A stretch of 64,000 nt of DNA. It comes from Streptacidiphilus sp. P02-A3a (GTDB lineage Bacteria; Actinomycetota; Actinomycetes; Streptomycetales; Streptomycetaceae). Position numbers and translations under genes: made by a program. This document shows positions 8,423-32,700 of the stretch, in pieces. Under the pieces are notes generated by a model. It searched no databases, was not told the DNA's origin, and saw only the letters and a list, made by a program, of their open reading frames with translations. Every line of letters begins with the position of its first letter. Position 1 is the first letter of the stretch. The DNA lies in the NCBI RefSeq assembly GCF_014084105.1, contig NZ_CP048289.1, positions 4,907,922-4,971,921 of the forward strand, given 5' to 3'.

Positions 8423-8436
8423 TGGGAGCGCTCCCA
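8423..8436. promoter_or_regulatory. CebR operator
   Basis: Perfect 14-bp palindrome TGGGAGCGCTCCCA, the established binding site of the LacI-family cellobiose/cellotriose repressor CebR in streptomycetes. It lies 44 nt before the GH48 start, so expression of that cellulase should be induced by cello-oligosaccharides. The remainder of the 8173-8479 intergenic region shows no gene. Confidence 0.9.
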
Positions 8437-8479
8437 TTCAGCTTCGGATCCCGTAGGTCCACGAAGGAGGAGTCCCGTT

Positions 8480-11122
8480 ATGTCCGAGTCCCTGTCCCGA
8501 AGGCGGTTCGCCACCGCGGTCAGCGGCGCGCTGATGGCCGTGGCCGCCGCGCCCTCCATCGCCAGAGCCGCGGCGGCGGGCGGCGCCGCGTCGGGCGCCG
8601 CGAGCGCGACGACCGCGACGGACGCGTACACCCAGCAGTTCCTGACCCAGTACAACAAGATCAAGAATCCGGCGAACGGCTACTTCAGCGCGGCCGGGAT
8701 CCCGTACCACAGCGTGGAGACGCTGATCGTCGAGGCCCCGGACTACGGGCACCAGACGACCTCGGAGGCGTTCAGTTTCTGGATGTGGCTGGAGGCCACC
8801 TACGGCCGGGTGACCGGGGACTGGACGGCGTTCAACAACGCGTGGACCACCGCCGAGCACTACATCATCCCCACGCACACCGACCAGCCGACCAACAGCT
8901 CGTACAACCCGAGCTCACCGGCGACGTACGCCCCGGAGTGGCCCTCCCCCAGCGACTACCCCAGTGCCCTCAACACCTCGGTCCCGGTGGGCCAGGACCC
9001 GCTGGCCAACGAGCTGACGTCGACCTACGGCACCGCGGACGTCTACGGCATGCACTGGCTGCTGGACGTCGACAACAAGTACGGCTACGGCAACACGCCC
9101 GGCACCGGCGCGGAGGCCGGGCCCAGCGCGAGCGGGCCGTCGTACATCAACAGCTACCAGCGCGGCTCCGCCGAGTCGGTGTGGCTGACGATCCCGCAGC
9201 CCACCACCGACCTGTTCAACTACGGTGGCCCGAACGGGTACCTGGACCTGTTCGTGGCGCAGAGCGGCGCGTACTCGAAGCAGTGGAAGTACACCGACGC
9301 CCCGGACGCCGACTCCCGCGCGGTGCAGGCCGCGTACTGGGCCTACCGCTGGGCCTCGGCCCAGGGCGCCGAGGGCCAGATCGCCGCCTCGGTGGCGAAG
9401 GCCGCCAAGATGGGCGACTACCTGCGGTACGCGTTCTTCGACAAGTACTTCAAGCAGATCGGCGACTGCGTCAACGCCAGTAGCTGCGCCGCTGGTACCG
9501 GCCGCAGCTCCGAGCACTACCTGCTGTCGTGGTACTACGCCTGGGGCGGGGCCGAGGCCGGCGGCGGCTGGGCCTGGCGGATCGGCGACGGCGCCTCGCA
9601 CCAGGGGTACCAGAACCCGCTGGCCGCCTGGGCGCTGTCCACCGTGGCCACGCTGACCCCGCAGTCCCCGACCGCGCAGAGCGACTGGTCGGGCAGCCTG
9701 ACCCGGCAGTTGGAGTTCTACCAGTGGCTCCAGTCGGCCGAGGGCGCCATGGCCGGCGGCTGCACCAACAGCTGGGAGGGGCAGTACGCCACCCCGCCCG
9801 CGGGCACCTCGACCTTCTACGGCATGGCCTACGACTGGGAGCCGGTCTACCACGACCCGCCGAGCAACAACTGGTTCGGCTTCCAGGCGTGGTCGATGGA
9901 GCGCGTCGCGGAGTACTACTACGTGACCGGCGACGCCAGGGCCAAGGCGCTGCTGGACAAGTGGGTGGCCTGGGCCGTCTCGCAGACCACGGTCACCGCG
10001 ACGAACTTCCAGATCCCGTCCACGCTCGGCTGGTCCGGCCAGCCGGACACCTGGAACCCGACCACCCCGGGGGCCAACTCCGGGCTGCACGTCTCGGTGG
10101 TCGACTACGGCAACGACGTCGGTGTCGCGGCGGCGTACGCCAAGACCCTGATGTACTACTCGGCCAAGTCAGGTGACACGGCGTCAGGAGCCTTGGCGAA
10201 GAGCCTGCTCGACGTGATGGCGACGTTCGCGGACACCATCGGCATCTCGGTTCCGGAGACCCGCACCGACTACAGCTCGTTCGGCGCCACGGTGTACGTG
10301 CCGACCGGCTGGTCGGGCAAGATGCCGAACGGCGACGCGATCGTGCCCGGGGCCACCTTCACCTCCATCCGCTCCTGGTACAAGAGCGACCCGAACTGGT
10401 CGCAGGTGCAGACCTACCTGAACGGCGGGGCCGCGCCCGTCTTCACGTACCACCGCTTCTGGGCGCAGGCGGACATCGCCATGGCCTACGCGGTGTACGG
10501 CGAGCTGTTCGAGGGCGCGGGCACCGGTCCGACGGCGACCCCGCCGACGGTGCCGACCGGTCTGGCGGCCTCGAACGTGACGAGCACCTCGGTGACCCTC
10601 ACCTGGACCGCGTCCACCGACTCGGCCAGCAGTGTGGCGGGCTACACCGTGTACCGGGGCTCGACCAAGGTCGGCCTGACCACCGGCACCTCGTACACCG
10701 ACACCGGGCTGACGCCCGCCACCGGCTACTCGTACACGGTCACCGCCCAGGACCCGGCGGGCGACACCTCGGCGGCCTCCGCCGCGCTGTCGGTCACCAC
10801 CTCGGCCGCGCCCGCCGGCGGCAGCTGCACGGCTGTCTACAGCGTCAGCAGCGACTGGGGCAGCGGCTTCAACGGCAACGTCACCATCACCAACAACGGC
10901 ACCACCGCCACCAAGACCTGGAAGGTCACCTGGACCTGGCCGGGCAACCAGACCATCAGCAACATGTGGAACGCCGGCTACACCCAGACCGGTACCTCGG
11001 TCACCGCCACCAGCATGACCTACAACAACGCCATCGCCCCGGGTGCCAGCACCAGCTTCGGCTTCGGCGCCACGTACACCGGCACCAACACCGCCCCGAC
11101 GGTGACCGTCACCTCCACCTGA
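8480..11122 (+). CDS. Secreted GH48 cellulase with FnIII and CBM2 modules
   Basis: 880 aa. A twin-arginine type signal ([20 protein letters not shown]) leads to a GH48 catalytic domain (about residues 48-680), then a fibronectin type III domain (about 690-775) and a C-terminal cellulose-binding CBM2 (about 782-880). GH48 enzymes are processive exocellulases acting from reducing ends. The family acid-catalyst region is visible in [18 protein letters not shown], with Glu in TSEAF. An AGGAGG site precedes the start. A CebR box controls the promoter and a strong hairpin follows the stop. The downstream GH10 xylanase suggests joint attack on plant cell walls outside the cell. Confidence 0.95.
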
Positions 11123-15983: not shown

Positions 15984-16883
15984 CCGAACAGCTCCTACCT
16001 GCGCCGCGAGCTGGCGGCCCTGCTCGGCATGACCCAGAAGGCCATGCGCACCGCGTTGCGCGTGTCCTTCGCCAAGGTCGCCGAGTACCAAAAGCGCGGC
16101 CTGGTCCACTTCCACGCTGTGATCCGCCTCGACGGACCCGACGGCAGCAACACGCCCCCGCCGCGCGAGGCCACCACAAGCGTGCTCACCATGGCTATTC
16201 AAGGCCGCCGCCCACCGCGGTGGTCCTGGCCGTGAACTAGACGCCGTCGGGGACCGGAAATCGTCTGGGGCGAACAGGTCGACGTCCGCACCATCGCCGC
16301 CTTCGGCACCGACGCCAAGCTCACCGACCACGCCGTGGCGGCGTACGCCGCCACGTACGCCACCAAGTCCGCCGACGACTCCGGCGCCCTGGACCGCTCC
16401 CTGTTCTGCGCCCCCTGCAACGGGCGCGGGATGGCCGTGTCCGCACAGACCGGTGTACCGGTGGAGTGCCGGGCCTGCTCGGGCACCGGCCAGTCCCGCC
16501 CGCTGCCCCGCCTGGCCGTGGAACGACACGTGCGGCAGATGATCCGTACCTGCTGGGACCTGGGCCAGCGACCGGAGTTCGCCGACCTCAAGCTCTGGAA
16601 GTGGGCGCACATGCTCGGCTTCCGGGGCCACTTCTCCACCAAGTCCCGGTTCTACTCGGTCACCCTCGGCGCACTGCGCGACGCCCGCCGGACCTGGCGC
16701 ACCGATCAGGCACGCGCACGCGCCGACCTGCCCGACCTCGACCCGACAACGACCCTGGTCGTCGGCCACTGGGCCTACCACGGGTCGGGTTACAGCCCCG
16801 GCGAGGAACTCCTCGCCGCCACCGTCCGGCACGACCGCGCCCACCAACGACAGTTCCAGCACGAAGGCGGGGACCGCCCATGA
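15984..16883 (+). pseudogene. AICE replication initiator (RepSA-like) remnant, element 1
   Basis: The remnant starts in mid-protein directly at the IS end (SSYLRRELAALLGMTQKAMR). It contains the HUH-type metal motif in KRGLVHFHAVIRLDG and, further on, AAYAATYATKSADDSG, a CxxC pair insert (CAPCNGRG, CRACSGTG), and KWAHMLGFRGHFSTKSRF. An in-frame stop at about 16233 and out-of-frame sequence just before it show an internal frameshift. Compared with the intact paralogue at 22956-24647 it lacks the first 220 or so residues. Non-functional rolling-circle Rep; it overlaps the xis gene by four bases. Confidence 0.85.
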
Positions 16884-17074
16884 CCGCGCCCGCCCCGGAG
16901 GAACTGCTGACAGTCCCGCAGGTCATGGCCCGCCTCCAACTCGGCCGCTCCGCTGTCTACGACCTCCTGCGCACCCGGCAACTCGGCTCCATCACCCTCG
17001 GCCGCGCCCGCCGCATCCCCGCACTCGCCCTCACCGACTTCATCCGCACCCGACTCGAACAGGACGCCACCTGA
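16880..17074 (+). CDS. xis: Excisionase / helix-turn-helix DNA-binding protein, element 1
   Basis: 64 aa MerR/Xis-type winged helix: ELLTVPQVMARLQLGRSAVY, then DLLRTRQLGSITLGRARRIP. Such small proteins between rep and int in pSAM2-like AICEs act with the integrase during excision. ATGA overlaps link it to rep upstream and int downstream. Very similar to the second copy at 24644-24832. Confidence 0.88.
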   Translation: MTAPAPEELLTVPQVMARLQLGRSAVYDLLRTRQLGSITLGRARRIPALALTDFIRTRLEQDAT

Positions 17075-18402
17075 TGACCACACCCCAGGGCACCCCCGCC
17101 TCCCGCCGCAGCCGAGCCAACGGAGACGGCACCATCTACCAGCGCCAGGACGGCCGCTGGGAAGCCGCCGGATACGTCCTCGCCGCAGGCGACACCCGCA
17201 AGCGCATCCGCGTCTACGGCACCACCCGCAAAGAGGCCCTGGCCAAGTTCACCGACAAGATCGCCACCAGCAACCGCGGCGTCCCCGTACCCTCCGCACA
17301 AGGCAGCCTGGGCGCCTACCTGACGTACTGGCTGGAGAACGTCGCCGTCCACTACCTCCGCGAGAACACCCACACCCGCTACCCCGCCTGCGCCAACCAG
17401 TACCTCATCCCCGGCCTGGGCAAGAAGAAGCTCGCCAAACTCACCGCCAAGGACGTCCGCTCCTGGCTCAACGACCTGCGCACCGTCTGCCAGTGCTGCG
17501 CACGCGGCACCGACGCCAGCCGCAACCCCCAAGCCCAGACCAGCCGCCGCCCCCGCTGCTGCGCCATCGGGAAGTGCTGCCACAAGCGGCTGTCCCCGCT
17601 GACCCTGGCCTACGTGCACTCCATGCTCAAGTCCGCCCTGGAGCACGCCGTCCGCGAAGAGGAGATCCCGCGCAACGTGGCCCGCAACGTCCGCATGGGC
17701 ACCCCCCGACCCCTCCGCTTCGAACCCCTCACCGCCGAGGAGGCTCGTGCGTTCCTTGCCGCCACGAACGGGCACCGGCTGAGCGCGCTGTTCGAGCTCG
17801 CCCTCCGCACCGGACTGCGCAAGGGCGAACTCCTCGGCCTGCGATGGGAGGACCTCGACCTGGCCGGCGGATCCGCCAGCATCCGCCGCACCTTGCAGCG
17901 CACTAACTCCAGCGGCCTTGTCGCCCTGCCCACCAAGACCCAGAGCTCGGAACGGCGCATCGCCCTGCCCACCGAGTGCCTGCGCTCCCTCGAACAGCAC
18001 CGCGACCGGCAGCGTCAGGACCGCGAGGCGGCGGGGGCGGGCTGGAAGGCGAGCGGCTACGTCTTCACCCGACCCGACGGCAACCCGATCAAAGGAGCCA
18101 CCCTCACCCGACACTTCAACACCCTGCTCCGCCGAGCCACCCTCCGCCGCATCCGCTTCCACGACCTCCGGCACTCGGCGGCCACTCTCCTCCTGGAACA
18201 GGGCGTCGAACTCGTCGTCATCAAGGAACTCCTCGGCCACGCCCACATCGGCGTGACCGCGACGGTGTACGCCCACGTCCGACTCCGCCTCCAACGCGAC
18301 GCCATCAACCTCCTCGGCAACGCCCTCCGCAACTCCAACGAGACCGCCACCCGACCCGACGACGGCGACGAACCACCACTTTGGGCAGCACCCGTCCGCT
18401 GA
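17074..18402 (+). CDS. int: Tyrosine recombinase (site-specific integrase), element 1
   Basis: 442 aa. N-terminal arm-binding domain (ANGDGTIYQRQDGRWEAAGY), SAM-like core-binding domain, and catalytic domain with Arg in ALRTGLRKGELLGLRWEDLD, His-x-x-Arg in HDLRHSAATLLL, and Tyr in GVTATVYAHVRLRL. An insert with Cys pairs (CQCCARGTD, CCAIGKCCHKR) sits at about residues 133-170. The gene appears complete although the linked rep is broken, so it could still act on att sites. Its stop is followed at once by the att-like repeat at 18404. Strong similarity to the integrase at 24832-26163. Confidence 0.95.
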   Translation: MTTPQGTPASRRSRANGDGTIYQRQDGRWEAAGYVLAAGDTRKRIRVYGTTRKEALAKFTDKIATSNRGVPVPSAQGSLGAYLTYWLENVAVHYLRENTHTRYPACANQYLIPGLGKKKLAKLTAKDVRSWLNDLRTVCQCCARGTDASRNPQAQTSRRPRCCAIGKCCHKRLSPLTLAYVHSMLKSALEHAVREEEIPRNVARNVRMGTPRPLRFEPLTAEEARAFLAATNGHRLSALFELALRTGLRKGELLGLRWEDLDLAGGSASIRRTLQRTNSSGLVALPTKTQSSERRIALPTECLRSLEQHRDRQRQDREAAGAGWKASGYVFTRPDGNPIKGATLTRHFNTLLRRATLRRIRFHDLRHSAATLLLEQGVELVVIKELLGHAHIGVTATVYAHVRLRLQRDAINLLGNALRNSNETATRPDDGDEPPLWAAPVR

Positions 18403-18607: not shown

Positions 18608-18700
18608 TCTTCGCAGGCCAGCCGCGACATGACAGTCCGTCGGAGTTCGTGGTTATGCGCTGACATCCGTGCTTGTTACCGTCACCGCTGCCGTCGGAGG
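18608..18700. repeat. att-like block A (left border of toxin cassette)
   Basis: A 93-bp block that aligns without gaps to block B (19637-19729) with roughly 20 mismatches. It begins TCTTCGCA and ends in a degenerate version of the GCCGTCA pair. It lies left of an orphan toxin/immunity gene pair whose right side is block B, both in the same orientation. It looks like the end of an integrative element opposite to its integrase. Confidence 0.6.
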
Positions 18701-18813: not shown

Positions 18814-19146
18814 TTACTTTAAGCGGGTCCGGGTCAAGGAAGAGCTGAAAGTAATACCCCCCCGTTCACGATCATTAACAAAGGAGACCAGGAGACCCTG
18901 CTCACCCCTTTCAGCGAGAGTTGCCAGGCATTCCGGGAACCCGACCGTCAACTTGCCACGCCTCTGCAAGTTTCTCTTCCGCGCCCCAGTGATTCCCAGA
19001 AGTTCTACTGCTAGGACCGGCTTGATCCAGAGATCAAAGTTCGCCCCGGAGATTAGCGCACGCTTGGCCAGGACGCTAGCTTCAGAATTAAGCTCAAATG
19101 CGGCTAGCAATTCATCCCTAGATGCGCTGTGAATTTCATCGTGCAT
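18814..19146 (-). CDS. Probable immunity protein of orphan toxin tip
   Basis: 110 aa, mostly helical, with no signal peptide or membrane segment. Segments such as DELLAAFELNSEASVLAKRA and LWIKPVLAVELLGI are visible. It starts 1 nt after the stop of the toxin-tip frame, the standard place for a cognate immunity gene. Base composition is clearly lower in GC than the flanking chromosome, as is usual for polymorphic-toxin modules. I do not recognise the family; the assignment rests on context. Confidence 0.55.
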   Translation of the reverse strand: MHDEIHSASRDELLAAFELNSEASVLAKRALISGANFDLWIKPVLAVELLGITGARKRNLQRRGKLTVGFPECLATLAERGEQGLLVSFVNDRERGGITFSSSLTRTRLK

Positions 19147-19147
19147 C

Positions 19148-19600
19148 TCATTCCCTTATAATACTTAGCCAAGTCATTCCAGAGTCAAAACTAACTTCTT
19201 CAGCGTAAATTTCTCCCACAATAAGATGTTCATCCTCGTCATAATCATATTCGCTGCCGTGAATTTGGATATTTCTCGATGGCCCGATTTCGGGGTCTAT
19301 GCCCGCTTCCCTGATGCGCATTATAACGCCAAGTTCACCAGTCGGCTCATCGTTCAGATATTGGGCGCCTTCATTGGCCCTCTCGATATCATGCGTCCAA
19401 GACGTGAAGGGGGAATCCGTTTGGTTTCCACCCACATGGGCCCTGATACCCGAGGGTCCACCACGAGGAACCGCCCGACCTTCAGCGGCGGCGTCATAAG
19501 CACGGTGCCCATTGGCCACACCGCGATACAGGTAGCCATCGCCGGTACCGCAACCGCTATCGGTGTTGTGTACCAGGACGGGGACGGTCCCCGCCATCAC
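19148..19600 (-). CDS. Orphan polymorphic-toxin C-terminal tip (possible ADP-ribosyltransferase)
   Basis: About 150 aa. It opens with the last strand of a HINT/pretoxin domain (TYYVMAGTVPVLVHNTDSG, counting from the codons just before the first start). The same motif in the full Rhs protein precedes its own tip. The toxin part contains LYRGVANGHRAYDAAAEGRA, a FTSWTHD segment and DEDEHLIVGEI. That order (Arg, S/T-T-S, Glu) resembles ADP-ribosyltransferase folds, but this is tentative. An in-frame TAG lies about ten codons upstream of the HINT strand, so the delivery part is absent. It could be a silent tip reservoir able to recombine with the rhs gene. Low GC; immunity gene 1 nt downstream. 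Confidence 0.6.
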   Translation of the reverse strand: MMAGTVPVLVHNTDSGCGTGDGYLYRGVANGHRAYDAAAEGRAVPRGGPSGIRAHVGGNQTDSPFTSWTHDIERANEGAQYLNDEPTGELGVIMRIREAGIDPEIGPSRNIQIHGSEYDYDEDEHLIVGEIYAEEVSFDSGMTWLSIIRE

Positions 19601-19636
19601 ATAGTACGTGTGGCACGGCGGCCTGCTCTACCTGCT

Positions 19637-19729
19637 TCTTCGCATGTCAGCGGTGTTTTGACGGTCTGTCGGGGTCCGTGGTTGTGCGCTGGCGTGCGTG
19701 GTTGTTGCCGTCACTACTGCCGTCAGAGG
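19637..19729. repeat. att-like block B (distal end of element 2)
   Basis: 93 bp, homologous to block A. It contains two direct CGTGGTTGT copies at 19677-19685 and 19697-19705 (20 bp apart), suited to arm-type integrase sites, then the GCCGTCA pair at 19707-19725 followed by GAGG. With the copy at 26165 it brackets the second AICE in direct orientation. Confidence 0.62.
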
Positions 19730-19796
19730 TATAGACCATTTGACCTCAATGACGTCAGCACGACCGCCCTCGGTGAGGTGTTGGCGCTCGGGGGCC

Positions 19797-20048
19797 TCAC
19801 TTCCACTCTCCGGGTTCTGCGCGGAGGGTGGCACGGGTGGTCCGCTCGTAGGTCGCGTGGCCGGTCTGCGCGCAGTGCGCGGCGATCCAGCGGGTCAGTT
19901 CCTCGGGGGTGTGCATCTGGCCGGAGGCGGCCCCACAGTCCTGCTCCTCTCCGGTGACACAGACCGCCTCGACGGTCGGCAGCGCCATCGCGTCCAGGAC
20001 AGTGGAGACGGTGTACTCGCGGAACCGGTAGCGAGTAGTCGTGCCCAT
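19797..20048 (-). CDS. Small conserved AICE-associated protein (DUF7848-like)
   Basis: 83 aa: RYRFREYTVSTVLDAM, then cysteines in VCVTGEEQDCGAASG and HCAQTGHATYERT, ending RATLRAEPGEWK. Cysteine/histidine spacing suggests a small metal-binding fold, as in the DUF7848 proteins often found beside XRE regulators in streptomycete mobile elements. The start ATG overlaps the stop of the upstream gene (ATGA), so the two are co-translated. Function unknown. Confidence 0.6.
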   Translation of the reverse strand: MGTTTRYRFREYTVSTVLDAMALPTVEAVCVTGEEQDCGAASGQMHTPEELTRWIAAHCAQTGHATYERTTRATLRAEPGEWK

Positions 20049-20425
20049 CAGCGCGCTCCCTGCTGGTCAGAGCCGTTGGCCTCGGCTGTGTCCGACGGGT
20101 CGGGGATGCGCTGCCCGCGTGAGTCCGCGACCCTGAGCGCGTCCGACAGGGCCTCGGTCAGCCGACAGGCCAGCCACCGGTACTCGACGTCCGTCAGCGC
20201 CCGCGCTCCGGGGGCCAAGACGCCCCGGGCGTGGTCCAGCAGTTCCTGCCCCATGGTGAGCTGGATCTCTTCGATGCCGTCGGCGAGCGACGCCAGGTAG
20301 CCCCCGCCGTCGGTGCTCAGGTAGCAGGGGAGCCCGTCCGGGGTGGCCCATGGCAGCAGGCGTAGTTCCTCCGCTGCGGGCCCCGCCGTGCTCGCGTCGA
20401 ACAGGTGTGTCGCCTCCTCGGCCAT
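20048..20425 (-). CDS. Hypothetical protein of element 2
   Basis: 125 aa, start ATG 20425 with GGAAGGGA upstream; the longer frame to 21001 overlaps the divergent XRE gene and is not believed. Acidic, mostly helical, with LTMGQELLDHARGVLAPGAR and LACRLTEALSDALRVADSRG. No domain recognised. It forms a two-gene unit with the 83-aa protein and is divergent from the XRE-TPR regulator, so it may be under its control. Confidence 0.55.
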   Translation of the reverse strand: MAEEATHLFDASTAGPAAEELRLLPWATPDGLPCYLSTDGGGYLASLADGIEEIQLTMGQELLDHARGVLAPGARALTDVEYRWLACRLTEALSDALRVADSRGQRIPDPSDTAEANGSDQQGAR

Positions 20426-20499
20426 GCTGCTGTCCCTTCCTCGGTTCGGCTCTATCGATCCAGGGTCTCGTTGGCCTGAACCTTTCGGAGTAGCCAGCG

Positions 20500-20519
20500 T
20501 GTCTGCCTGACTGTCTGCC
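20500..20519. promoter_or_regulatory. Direct repeat in the divergent promoter of element 2
   Basis: TGTCTGCC occurs at 20500-20507 and 20512-20519, 12 bp apart, between the divergent 125-aa gene and the XRE regulator. It lies just 11 nt upstream of the regulator start. A candidate operator, possibly for autoregulation. Confidence 0.4.
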
Positions 20520-20530
20520 AAGCTGGCCAG

Positions 20531-21736
20531 GTGGCGCGGGAATCGGTCGGGGAGCTGGTACGGCGGCTGCGGCTGGCGCGTGGTTGGAGTCAACAGCGGC
20601 TGGCCGACGCACTGGCCCAAGCTGCCCCCGGCAGGGTTCCGCCAACGCGCAACGACGTGTCCCGCTGGGAGATCGGCACCCGGTCCCCGCGCGAATGGCT
20701 GCCCTTTCTCGCCCTGGTGCTGGAGGTCCCGCGCGAACTGCTGGAGGCAGCCAAGGCCGTCCCACCGGCCGAGCCCGCCCCACGCGTGCTGACGGTGGCC
20801 GACTTCCTGCCCGAGGGCGACCCGCTGGCCCCGCTGGCTGTCAGGACCGGCCGGCGGATCGGAGCCGGGCAGGTCGCCGACCTGACCCAGCGAGTCCACG
20901 GCCTGCGCCTGGCCGACGACGTGGTCTACGGCAAGGACCTGATCGCCCCGGCACTGAGGGAACTGCGCGCGGCGGTCACGCTCTACCGCCAGGGCACCCA
21001 CACCGAGCAGGTGGGCCGTGAACTTCTACGGGCTATTGGCGAGTTGGCGCAGATCGCCGGTTGGGTCGCCTCCGACGCGGGCGAGCACGCCGAGGCGGAG
21101 CGGATCTACCGGCTCGGAATCAGTGCCGCCCGAGCCGCCGGGGACGGCGTCCTGTCGGGCAACGTCGCGGGCTCGCTGGCCTACCAGTGGAGCAACACCG
21201 GACGCCCCAGCGATGCCGTCGACCTGGCTTCCGCTGCCGTGGAGGAGGCCGGTCCCGATGCTCCGGCGAAGGCCCGCGCCCTGCACTTGGACCGGGTGGC
21301 TTGGGCGCACACCCGCGCCGGTCAGGACCGATCGGCGATGACCGCGCTCGGGGAGGCGAGCGAGGCCCTGGGACAGGACTCGGCCGGTACCGAGTCGCCG
21401 TCATATCTGTATTGGATGGACGCCGGGGAACTGTAGGTCATGGAGGCCCGCGTCTACACCGAGCTGCACCGGCCGCTGCGCGCGGTGCCGCTGCTGACGG
21501 ACGTCCTGGGGCGGTACGACGCCAGTCACGCGAGGGAGTTGGCTCTGTACTTGTCCTGGCTGGCCGTGGCCTACGCCGACGCGAACGAACCCGAGGCCGC
21601 AGCCGGGACCGCTGCCCGGATGCTCGCCCTGGGGCAGAGCGGCAGCGAACGCACCACCGAGCGCACACGGATCGTGCTTGACCGGCTGCGGGCGTTCCGC
21701 GACGTTCCCGAAGTCGCCGGGCTGCTGGCGTCCTGA
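20531..21736 (+). pseudogene. XRE-TPR transcriptional regulator interrupted by an in-frame amber codon
   Basis: The first part (301 aa from GTG 20531) has an XRE helix-turn-helix (ELVRRLRLARGWSQQRLADA, then NDVSRWEIGTRSPREW) and a TPR-like helical region. It stops at TAG 21434-21436. The same frame continues without another stop to 21736 (VMEARVYTELHRPLRAVPLL ...), giving a further 99 codons that read as more TPR helices. A single codon change (for example CAG to TAG) would restore about 400 aa, the usual size of such regulators. The N-terminal DNA-binding part may still be made. Confidence 0.7.
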
Positions 21737-22229
21737 TCGTCCCGATCACGTGGGGGGGCGAGTTCGGACTGCTGCTTGTGGGCGTCTCGGCGCTCGGCGG
21801 GCTTGCGCACGGTCTGGTCGCTCGGTACCAGGGCTCAGCGGTTCGGCGGGGGCCCGCACTGCCAAGCCGAGCGGCGTCGAACACCGCTCACGGCGGGTCC
21901 GGCGGTAGAACGGAGGGTCGGACCCCTGGCCGACCCTGTGCCCGCGATCCGACCGTAGGACGGTCGCTAGCGACAACTTGCTCCGGCTTGACGGGGCCTG
22001 GGGTAAGCAGTCCTTACCCCACAACTTGCTCCCATCGGGAATCAGTCGAGCCCCGCCCACATCCTCGGCTGACCACTCCCCGCCGACGCCAGCGAGGGCC
22101 TTGGTTGCTGCCATCGCCCTGGCTCGGTCGGCGACGTCGGGCCACCTCCAGCGGGCCGGACCCGCCTTGAACCTCGTAGAGAAAATCTGGACGCGCAGCT
22201 CCAGCCCCTGCCGTCCAGCGGCCGACGGG
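21737..22229. other. Gap of about 490 bp in element 2, no gene assigned
   Basis: One plus-strand frame reads a hydrophobic segment (FGLLLVGVSALGGLAHGLVA) near 21763-21822 but has no convincing start or homology. The rest shows no coding pattern. Possibly a degraded small membrane-protein gene or a replication/regulatory region. Confidence 0.35.
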
Positions 22230-22604
22230 TCAGCAACCTCGCTCGATGCCGCCTGCTTCGAGGGCCTCGACGCGGGCACGCAGAGCGGTGAGCTGATCAA
22301 GCGTCTCGGCCAGTGCCAGCTCCAGCGCCTCAACGCGCGCCGCCGTCCCGCCGACGGGCGTGTTCCCCGCCTCCCCGTCACCTGAGTCAGTGTCGGGGGA
22401 GGCGACGAAGGCGCCCTTGCCGGGGCGGGAGATCGCGTAGCCGTCCTGCTTCAGCAGGGCCATGGCCTTCTGCACGGACAGGCTGGAGGCCCCGTACTCC
22501 GCCATCAAAACGGCCTGCGTCGGCAACGCGTCCCCAGGCTTCAGCTCCCCTGAGCGGATCCGCTCCCGCAAGGCATCGGCGATGACCTCGAACGTCAGCA
22601 ACAC
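22230..22604 (-). CDS. GntR-family regulator of element 2 (KorSA-like role)
   Basis: 124 aa from GTG 22604; longer in-frame starts to 22883 give a Pro/Ser-rich extension I do not trust. Winged helix: FEVIADALRERIRSGELKPG, DALPTQAVLMAEYGASSLSV, QKAMALLKQDGYAISRPGKG. A C-terminal coiled-coil-like stretch (ARVEALELALAETLDQLTAL) could mediate dimer formation. GntR proteins near rep in pSAM2-type elements (KorSA) repress replication and transfer genes. It is divergent from rep, so it probably represses it. The 22605-22955 region between them shows no other gene. Confidence 0.7.
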   Translation of the reverse strand: MLLTFEVIADALRERIRSGELKPGDALPTQAVLMAEYGASSLSVQKAMALLKQDGYAISRPGKGAFVASPDTDSGDGEAGNTPVGGTAARVEALELALAETLDQLTALRARVEALEAGGIERGC

Positions 22605-22955
22605 CGTGCCGCCCGCCGGTCTACGTCCCCGCCGCCCCACCGTCACCGCAGGTCGCCCCGCTTTCTCTGCGCCACTACCACTGAAATCCGGCCCATCCAA
22701 AACGGAAGACCAGGGCCACAGTACTTGCGTCCCCACGGCCACCGAAATAGATGAGGAGGGATGCACTTGAATGCGCGCTTGAAGCGATGCTACCTTCACG
22801 CACCGCTGGTGAACACCACCGCTGACCAGGCCAGACGTCCCCGGCCCACCATCGGCGCCCGCCGTCACGCGCACCGTGCCCACGTGCGCTGATCACCCGG
22901 GTCGCCCCTCAATCGCCTTTCCTCTTCTCCCGACTCCTGCCGGAGGTCTGTCCCG

Positions 22956-24647
22956 ATGCCCGCGCAGCTCCAACTCCCCACCCCCGCGACCACCTCCACT
23001 CCCGCCAGCGCGGCGTTCGCCGCACCAGCGCTCACCACCAGCCCCGCCACGTCCGCGAACAGGAACTCGGCGCTGGAACGCCGGGCGCGGCTGACCGCCA
23101 GGCTGGCCAAGCTCGCCGCCGCCGGGTACCTCGCACCCCTGGCCCGACAGATCGGCTCGCTGGGCGGCTGCGCCCGGCCCATCCGTATGACCGGGCACCG
23201 CACCCGGGTCGACACCGCGACGGGCCTGATCCTCGATCACCTCGACGCCCGTCAGCTCCCGGCCGGTGAGCTGCTGGTCCGCTGCGGCAACCGCCGCGCC
23301 ACCCGCTGCCCAGCCTGCTCCACCGTCTACCGCTACGACACCTACCAACTCATCGCCGCCGGACTGCGCGGCGGCAAGACCGTCCCCACGAGCGTCGCCG
23401 CGCACCCGCGCGTGTTCGCCACCCTGACCGCTCCCGGCTTCGGGCCCGTCCATAACCAGCCCGACACCGGCCACTGCCATTGCGGTGCCCGACATGCCGA
23501 CACCGATCCCCTGCTCGGCACCCCACTCAACCCCCAGCACTACGACTACGCGGGCGCGGTGCTGTGGAACGCCCACGCCCCAGCCCTGTGGGCCCGCTTC
23601 ACCACCCACCTACGCCGAGAGATCGCCAAGGCCGCCGGACTCACCCAGCGCACCCTGCGGCACCACGCCACCCTCTCCTACGCCAAGGTCGCCGAGTACC
23701 AAAAACGCGGCCAGGTCCACTTCCACGCCGTCATCCGCCTCGACGGGCCCACCGGCCCCGGCAACACCCCGCCCGCCTGGGCCACCACCGAGCTCCTCGA
23801 CCACGCCGTCCGCGCCGCCGCCCAACGCACTCGCGTCCTGCACGAAGGCCAGTCGCGGCAGTCCGCCGGGGGCGACGCCTCTCGGCCCCAGGACGCTGGC
23901 CGGGCTGGGCGGCTGGTGTTCCGGTTCGGGCGGCAGATCGACGTCCGGCCGATCCGCAGCACCGACTTCACCGGCGACGCACCGGTCACCGACCGGCACG
24001 TCGCCGCGTACATCGCCAAGTACGCCACCAAGGGAGCCGAGACCACCACCGGCACCCTCGACCGCCGCGTCCGCCTCCTCGCCGAACTCGCCCAGTACGA
24101 CATCACCGACCACGCCCGCCGCATGATCCACACCGCCTGGCACCTCGCCACCCGACCCCAGCACGCCCACCTCCGCCTGCGGCAGTGGGCCCACATGCTC
24201 GGCTTCCGAGGCCACTTCTCCACCCGCACCCGCCACTACTCCACCACGCTCGCCGAGTTGCGAGCGGAGCGGAGCGCCTGGCGAACCCGCCAATCCGAAG
24301 CTGATACGTCGATGTCAACCGATCCCGCACGGGTCGGGCATGCGGGCCCGCCGGTCACTGACCGGAGCGGTGACCACGCTGACCTGAACGCCGGTCACCC
24401 AGCAGGTCAATGCGCGGGTCACCGCAACGCGGTCGATCAGCGCGGCAGCACGGACACGACCCTGGTCATCTCGCACTGGCAGTACGCCGGCACCGGCCTC
24501 CTACCCGAACTCACCCACCTCGCCAACCTCCTGGACGCCAAGCGGCCCACCCGACCGGACGGACGCCGACCGGACCGTCTCAGCCAAGACGCCGGTCACC
24601 CGCGCCGCCGGTCTACCCGCACTGACCGGACGGGGGTCACGAAGTGA
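22956..24647 (+). CDS. RepSA-like rolling-circle replication initiator, element 2
   Basis: 563 aa. Conserved parts: a Cys-rich segment (RCGNRRATRCPACSTVY, CHCGARH), the HUH-type metal motif in GQVHFHAVIRLDG, the AYIAKYATKGAE region, and QWAHMLGFRGHFSTRTRH near the C-terminus. A Ser/His/Asp-rich stretch near residues 450-500 differs from the broken copy in element 1. The protein should nick the element origin and start rolling-circle replication after excision. ATG 22956 follows GGAGG. The stop overlaps the xis start by four bases. Confidence 0.85.
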   Translation: MPAQLQLPTPATTSTPASAAFAAPALTTSPATSANRNSALERRARLTARLAKLAAAGYLAPLARQIGSLGGCARPIRMTGHRTRVDTATGLILDHLDARQLPAGELLVRCGNRRATRCPACSTVYRYDTYQLIAAGLRGGKTVPTSVAAHPRVFATLTAPGFGPVHNQPDTGHCHCGARHADTDPLLGTPLNPQHYDYAGAVLWNAHAPALWARFTTHLRREIAKAAGLTQRTLRHHATLSYAKVAEYQKRGQVHFHAVIRLDGPTGPGNTPPAWATTELLDHAVRAAAQRTRVLHEGQSRQSAGGDASRPQDAGRAGRLVFRFGRQIDVRPIRSTDFTGDAPVTDRHVAAYIAKYATKGAETTTGTLDRRVRLLAELAQYDITDHARRMIHTAWHLATRPQHAHLRLRQWAHMLGFRGHFSTRTRHYSTTLAELRAERSAWRTRQSEADTSMSTDPARVGHAGPPVTDRSGDHADLNAGHPAGQCAGHRNAVDQRGSTDTTLVISHWQYAGTGLLPELTHLANLLDAKRPTRPDGRRPDRLSQDAGHPRRRSTRTDRTGVTK

Positions 24648-24832
24648 TCGCCAGCGCTGAACTCCTCACCGTGCCCGAGGTCATGGCCCGACTCAAGATC
24701 AGCCGCACCGCCGTCTACGACCTCATCCGCACCCGCCAACTCGCCTCCATCACCCTCGGCCGCGCCCGCCGAATCCCCGCACACGCGCTCGACCACCTCA
24801 TCAACACCCGACTCGAACAGGAAGCCGCCTAA
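24644..24832 (+). CDS. xis: Excisionase, element 2
   Basis: 62 aa helix-turn-helix protein (ELLTVPEVMARLKISRTAVY, then DLIRTRQLASITLGRARRIP), nearly the same as the element 1 copy. GTG start overlaps rep; its stop overlaps the int start (TAATG), giving a coupled rep-xis-int operon. Confidence 0.88.
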   Translation: MIASAELLTVPEVMARLKISRTAVYDLIRTRQLASITLGRARRIPAHALDHLINTRLEQEAA

Positions 24833-26163
24833 TGACCACACCCAGCCACGCCTCTTCCGCCTCCCGCCGTGTCCGCGCCAACGGGGACGGCACCGTCTAC
24901 CAGCGAAAGGACGGCCGCTGGGAAGCCGCCGGCTACGTCCTCGCCTCCGGCGGCACCCGCAAGCGCGTCCACGTCTACGGCAGCACCCGCAAAGAGGCGC
25001 TGGCGAAACTGACGGAGAAGATCTCCGCCAGCAACCGCGGCGTCCCCGTCGTCACCGCCCAGGGCAGCCTCGCCGCCTACCTGACGTACTGGCTGGAGAA
25101 CGTCGCCGTCCACCACCTCCGCGAGACCACCCACACCCGCTACACCGCCGTCGTCCACCAGTACCTGATACCAGGACTGGGCCGGAAGAAGCTCGCCAAG
25201 CTCACCGCCAAGGACGTCCGCACCTGGCTCAACGAGCTACGGACCGTCTGCCAGTGCTGCACGCGCGGCACCGACGCCCGACGCGACCCCCGCGCGCAGG
25301 CCAGCCGACGCCCGCGCTGCTGCGCGCTCGGCCGGTGCTGCCACAAGCGGCTCTCCCCGCTCACGCTCGCCTACCTCCACTCCGTACTCAAGTCCGCCCT
25401 GGAGCACGCCGTCCGCGAGGAAGAGATCCCCCGCAACGTCGCCCGCAACGTCCGAACCGGCACACCCCGCCCCCGCCGCTTCAACCCCCTCACCGCCGAC
25501 GAAGCCCGACAGTTCCTCTCCGCCGTCCAGGGACACCGTCTCGCCGCCCTGTTCGAGCTCGCCCTGCGCACCGGCCTGCGCAAGGGCGAACTCCTCGGCC
25601 TGCACTGGGAAGACCTCGACCTCGACAGCGGCACCGCCAGCATCCGCCGCACCCTCCAGCGAACCGCCAGCAGCGGACTGGCGGGGCTGCCGACCAAGAC
25701 CATCAGCTCCGAGCGACGCATCGCCCTGCCGGCCTCCTGCGTCACCTCCCTACGCGCACACCGCGCGCGGCAGGCTGGGGAACGGGAGCGGGCAGGCTCG
25801 GAGTGGCACGGCAGCGGGTACGTCTTCACGCGGACCGACGGGCATCCGATCGAGCCCGCCACGCTCACCCGGCACTTCAACGCGCTGCTCCGCGAGGCGC
25901 ACCTGCGGCCGATCCGGTTCCACGACCTAAGGCATTCGACCGCGACGCTCCTCCTGGAGCAGGGCGTCGAACTCGTCGTCATCAAGGAACTGCTGGGCCA
26001 CGCCCACATCGGCGTGACCGCGACGGTCTACGCCCACGTTCGCCTCCGCCTCCAGCGCCAGGCCATCGACCTCCTCGGCCACGCCCTCGGCAACCTCACC
26101 GAGACCGCAACCGAGCCTGACGACGGCAGCGACCCACCGCTTCGTCCAGAACCCGTCCACTGA
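24832..26163 (+). CDS. int: Tyrosine recombinase (site-specific integrase), element 2
   Basis: 443 aa, closely similar over the full length to integrase 1: ANGDGTVYQRKDGRWEAAGY at the N-terminus, the Cys-pair insert (CQCCTRGTD, CCALGRCCHKR), and catalytic motifs LRTGLRKGELLGLHWEDLD, HDLRHSTATLLL and GVTATVYAHVRLRL. The active-site set appears complete. The stop lies one base before the 23-bp repeat shared with integrase 1, so both enzymes probably recognise the same kind of att site. Confidence 0.95.
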   Translation: MTTPSHASSASRRVRANGDGTVYQRKDGRWEAAGYVLASGGTRKRVHVYGSTRKEALAKLTEKISASNRGVPVVTAQGSLAAYLTYWLENVAVHHLRETTHTRYTAVVHQYLIPGLGRKKLAKLTAKDVRTWLNELRTVCQCCTRGTDARRDPRAQASRRPRCCALGRCCHKRLSPLTLAYLHSVLKSALEHAVREEEIPRNVARNVRTGTPRPRRFNPLTADEARQFLSAVQGHRLAALFELALRTGLRKGELLGLHWEDLDLDSGTASIRRTLQRTASSGLAGLPTKTISSERRIALPASCVTSLRAHRARQAGERERAGSEWHGSGYVFTRTDGHPIEPATLTRHFNALLREAHLRPIRFHDLRHSTATLLLEQGVELVVIKELLGHAHIGVTATVYAHVRLRLQRQAIDLLGHALGNLTETATEPDDGSDPPLRPEPVH

Positions 26164-26164
26164 C

Positions 26165-26187
26165 GTTGCCGTCAACTACTGCCGTCA
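26165..26187. repeat. att-type repeat next to int of element 2 (copy R2)
   Basis: Identical over 23 bases to 18404-18426 behind integrase 1: GTT then GCCGTCAACTACTGCCGTCA. It is the right-hand partner of 19704-19729 for element 2. Confidence 0.65.
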
Positions 26188-26209
26188 AGCACTGGCTCAG
26201 CACAACACA

Positions 26210-26243
26210 GCGGCCCCACCGGAAGAAATTCCGGCGGGGCCGC
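26210..26243 (+). terminator. Terminator after integrase 2
   Basis: Stem of about 15 bp with one mismatch (GCGGCCCCACCGGAA at 26210-26224, partner at 26229-26243) and a GAAA tetraloop. It is related to the hairpin after integrase 1. Confidence 0.72.
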
Positions 26244-26265
26244 TGCCCATTGCAGATCCACCCGA

Positions 26266-26649
26266 TCAGGGAATAACGGCTTCTGCTTGCGGGTCGTAGC
26301 AAACGAGGCCGTGCTTACGCGCCAGAGCAGCGAGAGCTGTTGCCATCACTTGCTGCCGAGACCACGAAATACTCGCAACCACGAAAGCATCGCTGAAATA
26401 GAGCGGACTCATCCAAGGAGAACTGTCGGCGTTCTCCTCAGTGAGATCCGGGAACACCTTGACGAGATCTGCCAGGAACTCGGAAACGGCCACGCTGGGG
26501 TTAGCAGCAGACGGCTCCTCATTGAGAATCGCCCTGTACGTATCAAGGGCACTCGAACCGTCAACCGGATCCTCTGAATACCAGAACGCGAGATCAAAGC
26601 TCACCAGACGACTCCCATCGAACATCAGGCACCAAGGGTAGGCCAGCAT
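26266..26649 (-). CDS. Immunity protein for the Rhs toxin tip
   Basis: 127 aa cytosolic protein: LVSFDLAFWYSEDPVDGSSA, FLADLVKVFPDLTEENADSS, PWMSPLYF and a C-terminal LARKHGLVCYDPQ. This pattern (acidic body, GLV-YDPQ end) is common among streptomycete proteins directly downstream of polymorphic toxins. It lies 69 nt after the rhs stop on the same strand and so should neutralise that tip. Specific family not named with confidence. Confidence 0.65.
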   Translation of the reverse strand: MLAYPWCLMFDGSRLVSFDLAFWYSEDPVDGSSALDTYRAILNEEPSAANPSVAVSEFLADLVKVFPDLTEENADSSPWMSPLYFSDAFVVASISWSRQQVMATALAALARKHGLVCYDPQAEAVIP

Positions 26650-26654
26650 AGAGC

Positions 26655-26689
26655 ACGAGCGGGCCAGGCCTCCAGCCTGGCCCGTTCGT
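26655..26689 (-). terminator. Hairpin between rhs and its immunity gene
   Basis: Ten-bp perfect core stem CGGGCCAGGC (26660-26669) and GCCTGGCCCG (26675-26684), extended by five pairs outside one mismatch. It is placed between the rhs stop and the immunity start. It could reduce read-through, or stabilise the immunity message. Confidence 0.6.
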
Positions 26690-26718
26690 GTCTACGGTCA
26701 CTCAGCTGGGGGCCGATC

Positions 26719-29700
26719 CTACGGCACCCACGCGTCAAAGACGCCATGGAGTTCATACTGGCCATTTAGAGTAACGGCGGTATTACCTGGCGTATTGAGC
26801 CAGCCATCAAAAAGCTTCTGATCAGGATTGCGACCGGCAGATGCGCCCTTTGTTTCGATTCCATACCAAAGGCCGTCTATGTTGGCCAGACCATCGAACT
26901 TCCGAAGCTTGAATCCAGGAACCCGGACACTCGTCTCCTGGCGCACCACCGTGACACCTTCAGTTTGAAGGTGATCCCATACGGTCTCCTCATTATTGGC
27001 GCCCGGCTGGACGCCGGTTGTACCGGCGTAATGGCCGTTTGCATCTCGAATGGATCCGTCGGGGTGGAGGTACGTGCCATTACCGAGGTCGACCTTGCAA
27101 CCTTCGCCGTCGGTGTTATGCACCAAGATCGGCGTGCCGCCTGCCACAACATAGTACGTGTGAAGTTGCTGAACTGTCAGGTTCCAGCGGTTCGCCGCCC
27201 CCGGGGTCGCATGGGTTGCGACGACGATGGAGTGGTGAGCACCGGTGCTGTTGAGTTCGTGACCCGGTTTGAGGCTGCCAGCGGCGACCCAGGTGTGGGT
27301 GGTGTCATCCCAGAACGGATGGTTTGCCGTGGTGTGAATAGTGGCGGTGTGGCCATGGCCAGTGGAGACGATAACGTCGAGGAGATCGGTATCATGATTG
27401 ATCCAGACATGCTGGACCATCCGACCGCCCTCTTCCTTCCCGGTATTTGGGTCGGCCGATTCGACCTCGTCGCCGTCCTTCAATTTGGCAATTGGCTTAG
27501 TCTTGCCGTTGGCGAGCAGGACAGGCGTCGTGGGAGAGAAACTACACTCGCCACAGGCCAGGCACGACGAACCGCCACTCGCCGATTTGCCGCCCCCACC
27601 GGTTCTTTTCGCCGCCGTAGTCGGATTTACCGATTTTCCAGCGGTGAGACTATCGCCTATTTCTTTCAGGAACGAAGTGAAGAACCCACCTATGCTACCG
27701 GACGACTTCTGAAGCGCCTCTTCGGCCATGCAGACCGCCAACACCACTCCGGAGGGGATATCACAGAGTAGGGAGTTGAGTTCTTGGATCTTGCCCGCAG
27801 TCAACTCTGCTGCCTCAGAAACAGAAGCAACGAGATCCAACGGGTATGTCTCTTCGGGATTAGATGACACAACTTGAGATTCGCGCCACATCTCGGCGCA
27901 TGCCCCCGGCGAAAGATCGCAGCCAGTCTGATATTCCCAGTCCGCCAATTCGCCATTCTGGCAAGCGGAATCACAGCTACTGGACGCACTAGTGCTGCCG
28001 CTGGAGTTGTTCGTGGGGGGCGGTGCCGAAGGGGTTTCCGGACGGGGTGCGATGCCCAAGGAACTGCACTCAGGGCTGTCGACACCTGCAGTGCACATGA
28101 GCCCGGTGGGGTCGCTGCCGGTGCTGGGGTTGTCGGCGGCGTAGGTGTAGCCGCCCATCTGGTTGGGCTCGCCGGCTTCGAAGATGGGGTCGGGGCTGGT
28201 GAAGCGGCCCTCGGTGGGGTCGTAGTTGCGGGCGCCGAGGAGGTCAAGGCCGGTGTTGGGGTCGCTTGGCTGGTTGAGGAAGCCGCGGTTCTCGTCGGTG
28301 CTGATCCAGGTGGTGGGCTGGGTGCCGCGGGGGTTGCCGTAAGGGTCGTAGTAGCGGCGGGTGACCGCGAGGGAGCTGGCGTCGATGGTGGTTTCGGCGG
28401 TGCCCTGGCCGTTGGCGACTTGGTAGGCGACGGTGCCGGCGCTGGTGCGGGTGATGGTGGTGCCGTCGGGGCCGTTGTAGTTGCGCAGGGCGGTCCAGGA
28501 CTTGTTGGGGACGTTGAGGGTGATCTGTTCGGCCCCGCCGAAGAGGTAGAGGATCCGGGTGGTGGGGGTGGATCCGGTGCTGCTGGTCTGCTCCAGGAGG
28601 CTGCCGCTGGCGTCGTAGAGGTAACTGCTGGTGGCGGTCGTTGTTCCGGTTCCGGTGGTGACGGTGCTGGTGCGGCCCTCGGCGTCGTAGGTGGTGGTCT
28701 GGGTCTGGCCGGCGGGGATGGCGGTGTTGTCGGTGGGGACCGTGTAGGTCTGGCCGCCGCTGCCGCAGGTCCAGACGATCTGCTTGGCGCCGCCGGGCGA
28801 CTGGTTGCCGCTGGGGTCGGCCAGGCAGCGGCCGGAGCTGGTGTTGACCAGGGTGGTGGCGGTTGCCTTCCACTGCTGGCTCGCGGTGCCGCTGGTGCAG
28901 GTGTTCAGGACCACGGTGGCGTCGTTGGCACCGGTGGTGTCCAGGCACAGGCCCTGGATCCTGACGGTGCCGTCGCTGCCGATGGTGACGTCCTGCCCGC
29001 CGGCTTCGCAGCCCCAAAGAATCACCCCGGTGCCGGGGGTGGTGGAGGCTCCGGGGTCAGCCAGGCACAGCTTCCCGCCGCTGGTGGTGGTCACCCCGGA
29101 CAGCACGTTCCCGGTGGCGGTGACGGTGCGCTTGGTGGTGTTCCCGTTGTCGGCACCGCTGGTGGGGTCGGTGTAGCCAGGAGTGACCGTGGTGGTTCCG
29201 GCCAGGCTGGGGTTGGGATTGCTGGTGGTGACGCTGGTGGCCTGGTTCGGATCACTGGCACTGGTGGTGCCGTTACTGCCGGGGTAGGCGATGTTCTGGG
29301 TGGTGTCGTTCACCGCGTTGCCGCTGGTGTCGTGGTCGACCAGGCTCGTGCGATCCCCCAGCAGGTCATAGCTGTAGGACTGCCAGTACGCGGCGGGACC
29401 GCCGACCGTGGTGGTGCCGACGGTGGTGGTCTCCGGAGCGCTGCTCGCGCACCCCCCGACCCCTCCCCCCAGGGAGCTGGACAGCGTGGTCAGACCCTGG
29501 GTGTCGCTCCAGGCCTGGGTCAGACGCTGCATCGAGTCGTAGGTGAAACACTGGGTGTCGGTGCCGGTGATGGAGCCACCGCTGGACTGGGTGTCGGACA
29601 CGCCGGTGAGATCGCCGACGGTGTCGTAGCGGTAGGCGTACCCGTCTATCGCGTTGGTTGTGCTGGTCTGGGTGTTGGTGTCCGATGTCAACTCGCGCCC

Positions 29701-32700
29701 GGTGACCGCGTCCCAAGTCGCGTCGGTGACCAGTTGCTTGCCGCCGACACCGTAGGTGGAGCGGCTCTCCTGGCCCAGGGCCGTGTAGTCGGCGACGTCG
29801 AGGTAGGCGGCGCTGCCGTGGGTGCCGTTGGCGTAGGTCAGGGTGGAGCCGGTGGACTCCAACATCCCGCCGAGGTAGTCGCCATAGGTGACGGCTTCGT
29901 CCGGCAGACCGCCGTCGGCGTCGTAGTGGACCTCTTCCAGTTCACCGGTGTTGGGGCTGTAGGTGTTGGTGTTGGTGTAGGTGACGGAGCCGCTGGTGGG
30001 CGCAGTGCTCTGTCCGGCCGCGGCGAAGCCGTCGGCGGCGGGGATCGTCAGGCTGCTGCCGAGCTGCTGGTAGGCCGCGTTGTAGCCGGTGACAGCCTCG
30101 CTGTAGGTGGACCCGGTGCTGCCCGCTCCACCCACGTAACTGGCTGTCGACGTCGGGTAGCCCTTGGCCAGGGTGTCGTAGCTCCACGACGCCAGCTCGT
30201 AGTTGGCGGACTCACTCGAACCTGAGGCGGTCAGGTTGTACTCGGCTGTCGGCCGGTTGTCCCAGTCGTAGGCGTAGCCGAGTTTGTCACCGCGCGCGTC
30301 GGTCGACTCCAGCAGATTCCCGAGGTCGTCGTAGGAGTTGAACGTCGTGGTGCCCACGTTGGGGTCGCTCTGCGAGGTCGTCTCACCGAGCAGGTTGTAC
30401 TGGTAGGACCAGGTGTTCCCGGCGCTGTCCTTGACCGTGGAGACCTGACCGGCCGGGGTGTAGGTGTAACTGGTCGTCGCGTTGGCCTGGGAGGCCTTCT
30501 GGTAGGTGTTACTGGCCCAGGCGGCGGTGCCGGCACTGGTGTAGTCGACCAGGTTCGCGTCGTTCTGCAGCTTCAGCGTGGACCCGGTAGTGGCCGCCAG
30601 GCCTGTGCTCCACAGCTGCGTTCCCGACGCGCTGTAGACGTACAGGTTCCCGTCGGTGCCGAACTTGGCGTAGGCGCCCGTGCTGGAGGTGCTGCTGTGC
30701 CACAGGGTGCTTCCCGAAGCCAGTGAGGAGAGCACCAGGTCACCGCTGGCCAGCATCGACAGCCTGACGCTGTCGGAGGAGAGCGAGGTTCCCGAGGCGA
30801 TGATCTGGCCGCCGGTCAGCGTCACCTGAGCGTTGGTGTTCTCCACCACGGTGCTGGTCGTCTGCCCGAGTGCGTTGGTGAATGTCTGGGTGGTGGAGCC
30901 GCCTGCCGGTGGGGTGCTCACGGTCTCGTCGGCACCTGGGTAGCTGGTGGAACTGCTCCACTGCGCCGTGCTCTTGGAGTACAGCGTGCTGCGGAAGGAC
31001 CGGCCCTGCCCGTCGTAGGTGGTGACCGTCTCCGAGGGGATCTGGTTCTCGTTGTCCGGCTCGGCCATCGTGGTCGAGGGAGCCGTCGTGGAGTCCCAGT
31101 AGGAGGAGTAGGTACGCACGGGCCAGCCGTGGCTGTCGTAGAACGTGTCCGTCAGGACCCGGCCTGTGGTGTCATCGGCCGCCGTGTCGCTCTGCGTCTG
31201 ACGCTCCTGCATCATCCCGTCGTAGAAGGTGACCGACGTGCCGTAGCTGTCGTTCTCGTTCAGGGTCTGCGTCGTCACCGAACTGGGGGCACCGCTGAGT
31301 GGCTCGTTGGGGGTGATGGTGGTCTGCGCGCCCGGGTCGACCGCATACGCGAACTTCTCGTCCGGGTAGGCCGGATAGGCCGCTTCCGGGCTGGAGCCCA
31401 CCGCGACGCGGCCGGGAAGCCATACCGCGGTGCGCCGTCCGAGCGCGTCGTAGGTGATGTCCGTGTACCGGTTGTTCGCGTCGATGTTCTCCGTGACCAA
31501 TCCGCGCAGCGGATCCAGCTTCGACGTCGTGGTCCAGCCCTGCGAGTTGGTTGACACCACCGTGGTGGGGTCGGTGTTCCCACCGGCGCTGCTCCACGCC
31601 GGGGTGTAGGAGGTCCCCGTGGGCCTGCCGTTGGTGTCCAGTGTCTGGGTGACGCGCCCGGCCCCGTCGTAGGTCATCGTGGCAGTGGTCTGCCACGCCG
31701 TCACGGTACCGGCGCTGGACGCGGTGGCGGTCAGGGTTCCGGTAGCCTCGCCAGTACCGGCAGCATCCAACTGGCCGAAGGTACCCAGGCTGGTCAGGGT
31801 TCCGTCGCCTCCGTAGTACGTTCGCGCCGCCGACAGCAGGGTGGGAGACGACCCGGCGCAGGCACCAGTGACATTGATGACCTGGTCCTTATAGGTCAGC
31901 ATCATCGGGTTGCTGGTCGGTGGCGTTGCGTAGCTGGTCGTCGAGCACGTCTCCTGGGGTGCGGAGCCGCCCACGTCCGCGATCGAGTCCGCTGTGGAGG
32001 GGCGTCCCTGGCTGTCGTAACCAGTGATGCTCTCGTTCTCACGCCAAGAGCCGCTTGCCAGGAGCGAATACGCACGCGACTCGGTGGAGGTCGGCCGGTA
32101 GGAGATCAGGTTCGGCAGCGTCGAGAGCGTCGGTGCGGTGCCCGTGTCGTCGGTGGTGTTCCAGTCCGTCCAGGCGCTCTGTGCCACGCTCTGCGTTACC
32201 GCGTTGGCAAACGGCCCGTTGACGGTCTTGGCGTCGATACTGCCGCCGGCCTTGGTGTAGGTGTCGGTCTCCAGTACGGTTCCGGCCAGCCAGTTGGAGT
32301 CGGTGACCTGGTCACCGACGGAGTCGACGACCTTGACCGAGCGGCGTGTTCCATCGGCCAGGTAGTCACCGTCCATGCCCTGCATGTAGGTAGTGGTCGT
32401 CTGGGTGATCGGATCCGGGGCACTACCGGTGGTGACGGTCACTGTGGCATAGCCGCGGAACTGGTCCCAGGTCCGGTACTGGTCGTCTGTCTGTACGGAG
32501 TCGTCACGGTGCCATGCTGCAGGCCCGTAGGCATAGGTGGATGTCTGTGTGGGGGAGCCGTCGTACGAGGTGACGGTCGTTCCCTGCATCACGACACCGG
32601 CCTGGTCCGAAGAGGCGCCGGTCAGGTCGGACACGGCCACCGTCTGCACACGGGTCTTGTTGAACCAGTCCGCGATCGGCTTTATCGCACCCGGTGGTGT

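Follow-up and report, generated by a model that had tools for sequence, protein, structure and literature searches.

New tips of polymorphic toxins are usually credited to recombination with silent cassettes. In the orphan rhs-CT/rhsI modules of Salmonella (PMC3967940), as in standalone polymorphic-toxin cassettes (PMC3482391), a silent displaced tip and its immunity gene lie downstream of a full rhs gene, which they could in principle re-arm. Actinomycete integrative and conjugative elements (AICEs) of the pSAM2 type carry a tyrosine integrase (Int), a Xis-like helix-turn-helix (HTH) protein, RepSA and an FtsK-type Tra, are bounded by direct-repeat attachment (att) sites, and undergo tandem accretion and decay (PMC3218068, PMC9513070). 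A 64,000-nt stretch of the Streptacidiphilus sp. P02-A3a genome (NZ_CP048289.1; hereafter the window) shows likenesses to both systems: an element resembling those AICEs, with Tra present in its longer relatives, lies between a full rhs gene and a displaced, probably silent tip. Most described tyrosine-integrase AICEs occupy tRNA 3′ ends and a minority sit in protein genes; the site here is inside a toxin gene, and, unlike described AICEs, the element brings a replacement toxin end together with an immunity gene. The sequence argues that positions 19599–27162 are an integrated AICE-like element that uses the 14-bp CACACGTACTATGT in rhs as its attachment core, supplies the gene with a new 3′ end and displaces the old tip, a reading whose probability we put at about 0.86. 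It is built on same-strand direct-repeat cores, the content and orientation of the element between them, recurrence of the arrangement with unrelated tips, breaks in homology at the core, and conservation of the core at the DNA level.

Prophage e14 and phage 21 likewise insert inside a coding gene, icd, and provide a replacement 3′ end. The icd protein is left nearly unchanged, whereas rhs would receive an effector domain unrelated to the one it loses, together with that domain's own immunity gene. Orphan tips, AICEs and 3′-end-replacing integrations are each known. In the literature open to our search, which excluded most subscription papers, preprints and supplements, no description turned up of an element that exchanges polymorphic toxin tips through integration at the tip junction of rhs. 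A mobile element here appears to renew the tip in a single event, bringing in a toxin along with its antidote while the old pair is retained. Such an arrangement would give the element a useful rather than harmful landing site and the host a new weapon, would explain the orphan tip arrays of streptomycetes, and would link conjugative elements to interbacterial competition.

Two cores and what lies between them

A search of the window for the 14-mer located CACACGTACTATGT at 27149–27162, at the end of rhs, and at 19599–19612, at the start of the orphan tip, both on the minus strand. The original prediction of 14 identical bases at these two places thus proved exact in coordinates and strand. 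With up to two mismatches permitted these remain the sole matches, and shuffled controls gave a mean of 0.04 matches and never two copies. The rhs copy, attL-like, encodes the residues HTYYV; the orphan copy is attR-like. On the rhs-body side of the two cores not a single additional base is identical. The rhs core continues into the PT-HINT domain (27115–27501, minus strand; PF07591, E 9e-17), whereas the orphan core runs into an in-frame stop at 19628–19630 and then into block B from 19637, the distance of 25 bp being that given in the earlier note. On the tip side, homology extends a further 44 bp, to a total of 58 bp at 72%, because both copies code for the last residues of the HINT domain (HTYYVxAGxxPxLVHNTD). 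Within CACACGTACTATGT an imperfect inverted repeat, CACA and TGT(G), flanks a 7-bp centre, a layout that would be compatible with a tyrosine recombinase site.

The rhs/wapA-type gene (26719–35247, minus strand) encodes 2842 aa. Its current tip (26719–27148, minus strand) has no Pfam match and looks nuclease-like by eye; the 127-aa gene that follows (26266–26649, minus strand), which has no family match in Pfam or NCBIfam, is presumed from its position to be the immunity gene. The orphan tip (19148–19598, minus strand), a predicted ADP-ribosyltransferase (ART), is followed by a 110-aa gene (18814–19146, minus strand) that is probably its immunity gene, since in ten further loci, whether the tip is fused or orphan, this gene comes after it. 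Neither tip and neither presumed immunity protein received a name above cut-off from Pfam and NCBIfam. Homologues of the orphan tip, 37–76% identical, end full-length Rhs proteins in other Streptomycetaceae, so that the tip has the makings of an orphan Rhs module: homologous to full-length Rhs tips, devoid of a body, and linked to an immunity gene. Lacking both a body and a secretion part, it is probably silent. This agrees with the earlier view of the orphan as a displaced rhs tip, its HINT domain cut exactly at the conserved end.

The kinship of the orphan tip with ARTs is a prediction. When the R-S-E motif of ARTs was sought among its homologues, YRG, TSW and ExE were found conserved. A structure model of moderate confidence (predicted local distance difference test, pLDDT, 74.5) drew mostly ARTs as top Foldseek matches, the first of them the Rhs toxin TreX, and these matches are weak (E 0.011 or worse, template-modelling score about 0.45). 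Elsewhere, in Streptomyces sp. NBC_01549, an rhs gene has its ART-like tip interrupted by an insert of about 1.6 kb (positions 8436–10001 of the fetched region), with the immunity gene kept.

The stretch from core to core, here called element 2, has a period of 7550 bp. Starting at rhs, one meets a core, the current tip, a small gene, int2 in reverse orientation, the HTH protein and RepSA, also in reverse; other genes lead on to block B, the second core and the orphan tip with its own small gene. Beyond these lies a second, decayed unit with its own integrase, int1. The 443-aa tyrosine integrase int2 (24832–26163, plus strand; PF00589, E 5e-30), antisense to rhs, lies about 1 kb from one core. 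Farther from rhs lie the Xis-like HTH protein (24644–24832, plus strand; HTH_17, E 8e-12) and the replication initiator RepSA (22956–24647, plus strand; PF20199, E 1e-139). Element 2 thus shares with AICEs an integrase gene by an att site, direct-repeat att sites at both ends and a RepSA-type replication gene. An FtsK/SpoIIIE-type Tra (TraB) was not among the element-2 open reading frames scanned; longer relatives carry FtsK/SpoIIIE, RepSA and Int, and are full AICEs, so the window copy is termed AICE-like. No tRNA, the common integration target, is present in the window.

Conservation and recurrence of the core

The identity of the 14 bp exceeds what protein conservation requires, for it contains ACG and TAT, rare codons in these genes, and yet is kept across the family. 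In a sample of 31 PT-HINT ends picked regardless of the presence of the core, the exact CACACGTACTATGT occurs at 26, against 0.24 expected from the codon usage of the same genes (0.0076 per gene); the corresponding binomial P (1e-50) is merely indicative, because the genes are related. The tyrosine codon at +3 is TAT in 27 of the 31, although TAT makes up 6% of tyrosine codons in these genes. Codons a few positions away, which serve as an internal control, take common forms or vary. In two sets of 20 rhs genes, both hand-picked from one list, an integrase of this kind lies downstream of nine of those bearing the core and of none bearing synonymous variants (Fisher p 0.0012).

This conservation leaves the most sceptical explanation, that the 14 bp reflect nothing but conservation of the coding sequence and that the orphan arose by chance through truncation or duplication, barely credible: HTYYV is indeed conserved as protein, but the synonymous alternatives exist and are found in rhs genes without this integrase, and orphans of several genera share their start base and block.

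Distinct, same-strand core pairs were collected from regions fetched from several Streptomycetaceae genera. An integrase is enclosed in 25 of the 33 pairs examined, and RepSA is present in 23 of those 25. Twenty-four of the enclosed integrases are antisense to rhs, and all 24, that of element 2 among them, have the block beside the far core. The exception, at 3.7 Mb in genome G001, is an integrase 58% identical and in the opposite orientation, without a block, yet bounded by the same CACACGTACTATGT core. Fourteen genomes of the same genus contain CACACGTACTATGT 41 times and its reversed control not once, and a core lies within 1.5 kb of 23 of 29 relatives of the integrase. Orphan tips in several genera have a common starting base and are preceded by the same block, and the 14 block-linked ones fall into 12 families, so that most are unrelated to one another. 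Streptomyces sp. NBC_00080 (NZ_CP108236.1) and S. goshikiensis (NZ_CP115937.1) each have a polymorphic toxin gene followed by an annotated set of AICE genes, after which come a block, a core and an orphan tip.

In viral contigs the 14-mer has 31 matches, just three of them in a HINT context, and a match to the 14-mer alone in so huge a collection therefore means little; no phage integrase at least 60% identical was found, the best being about 30%. As a separate observation, a contig from outside the family has three successive HTYYV HINT-end motifs (at 1316, 4159 and 6661, spaced 2.5–2.8 kb apart), two with the exact core; the core arrangement may thus extend outside Streptomycetaceae.

Homology between loci breaks at the core as well. 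Among 146 core sites compared, eight pairs have sequence in common on the tip side and not in the body, with homology that begins 1–32 nt before the core and extends for 0.7–1.5 kb, an upper limit set by the stretch compared; starts more than about 20 nt before the core are due to shared NLT(V/I) codons. Loci of genomes G001 and G090 are 89% identical over 1.84 kb, a stretch that starts one base ahead of the core and takes in the tip, the immunity gene and the integrase. One pair is homologous right through the core. Conversely, 48 pairs combine similar bodies with unrelated tips, and their identity drops to about 0.3 past the HINT tail. The original prediction would have been undermined by an orphan tied to another rhs gene with homology ending elsewhere; homologues of the orphan are in fact fused to other bodies, and shared-tip homology starts at CACACGTACTATGT.

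A proposed route of tip exchange and its rivals

Mechanistically, we envisage a circular form of the element in which the core would join the end block to the element's own toxin tip and immunity gene. Integration at the core, presumably catalysed by int2 and with the exact crossover probably within the 14 bp, would fuse the new tip in frame to the rhs body. The old tip, the predicted ART, would come to lie, together with its immunity gene, beyond block B and a second core, becoming the orphan. Further insertions at the same core would build a last-in, first-out stack of tips, and excision would bring an older tip back. The ART-like tip of the window was probably brought in by an earlier element, element 1, and the present one by element 2. 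Re-arming of the toxin would then be a site-specific recombination event, directly testable from its two components, an integrase and a 14-bp core.

Several points weigh against this reading. No excision, circle or empty site was seen in the same species. The putative arm repeats near int lie about 1 kb from the core, which is unusual for attP. Eight of the 33 core pairs have no integrase between them, and none of this kind lies within 16 kb of 11 of the 20 core-bearing rhs genes sampled, perhaps through decay or by other routes. The counts of loci do not give prevalence, because many loci were found via the core or the integrase. Finally, the identities of the block show no correlation with those of the integrase (Mantel r 0.03, p 0.42), and this lack of signal speaks neither for nor against the element.

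One rival is homologous tip exchange, in which the conserved HINT end would let orphan cassettes recombine with rhs, the nearby integrases being incidental. HINT ends are conserved, and recombination of an orphan onto rhs is documented in Salmonella (PMC3967940). The Salmonella exchange, however, employs 522 bp at 95%, whereas the homology of rhs and orphan amounts to 58 bp at 72%, with a run of 14 exact bp; the long, near-identical stretch that would favour this route is missing, and it was rejected. Nor does it account for a block that precedes orphan tips of unrelated kinds, for integrases enclosed by cores or for the confinement of synonymous-site conservation to 14 bp, and we regard it as very unlikely. 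Instead, the 14-bp core, end block and integrase gene point to site-specific recombination. The earlier proposal of tip recombination at the HINT end is therefore retained as to the point of exchange and abandoned as to its nature, a plain conserved coding stretch serving homologous recombination; a return of the orphan onto the rhs body would rather be excision of the element than an exchange across 14 bp.

Equally improbable is a crossover at the TGACGGCA repeats. These lie at the 3′ end of int2 (26161–26188), where they may be integrase arm sites, and at the outer end of block B (19704–19729), as direct repeats near both ends of the stretch from int to block. Insertion would then have occurred after the immunity gene, and the HTYYV junction would stem from a pre-existing cassette array, a view in keeping with the absence of an integrase between some core pairs. 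It is disfavoured by the shared-tip homology that begins at the HTYYV core and spans tip, immunity gene and int, and by the block-less element still bounded by the same core; nor does it offer a reason for DNA-level conservation of the core in rhs genes.

A wider generalization suggests itself, though we rate it at somewhat less than even odds: that a dedicated class of tip-swapping AICEs, served by at least two integrase lineages, docks in polymorphic toxin genes, that rhs keeps the 14 bp as a capture site, and that the outcome is a reversible, last-in, first-out stack of toxin/immunity pairs re-arming the same secreted body.

The older element and the surrounding repeat

Block B, the conserved end block of about 110 bp (annotated as 19613–19735), has a diverged second copy, block A (18608–18700), between the immunity gene of the orphan and int1. 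Block A is 78% identical to block B over 93 bp, has no core after it, and is perhaps the scar of an older element. The tyrosine integrase int1 of element 1 (17074–18402, plus strand; PF00589, E 2e-29) is 80% identical to int2, and a partial RepSA remnant at 38% identity adjoins it (15990–16817, plus strand). Within element 2, an HTH regulator-like protein (20531–21436, plus strand) matches HTH_31 at E 7e-5, below the Pfam cut-off.

The surroundings of the orphan are present as a second, inverted copy, 100% identical, because the window sits in a large terminal inverted repeat. This repeat (genome 4480763–5007921) is 100% identical over the first 44.6 kb tested and 99.9% overall, with many single-base indels. 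With dnaA at contig position 1588 and a palindrome at about 4744386, the contig seems to begin at the origin and to have the two ends of a linear chromosome fused near its midpoint; the terminal repeat would span about 263–284 kb, with the rhs cluster in two copies. Elsewhere, window positions 60102–60371 contain short tandem direct repeats, 82–89% alike.
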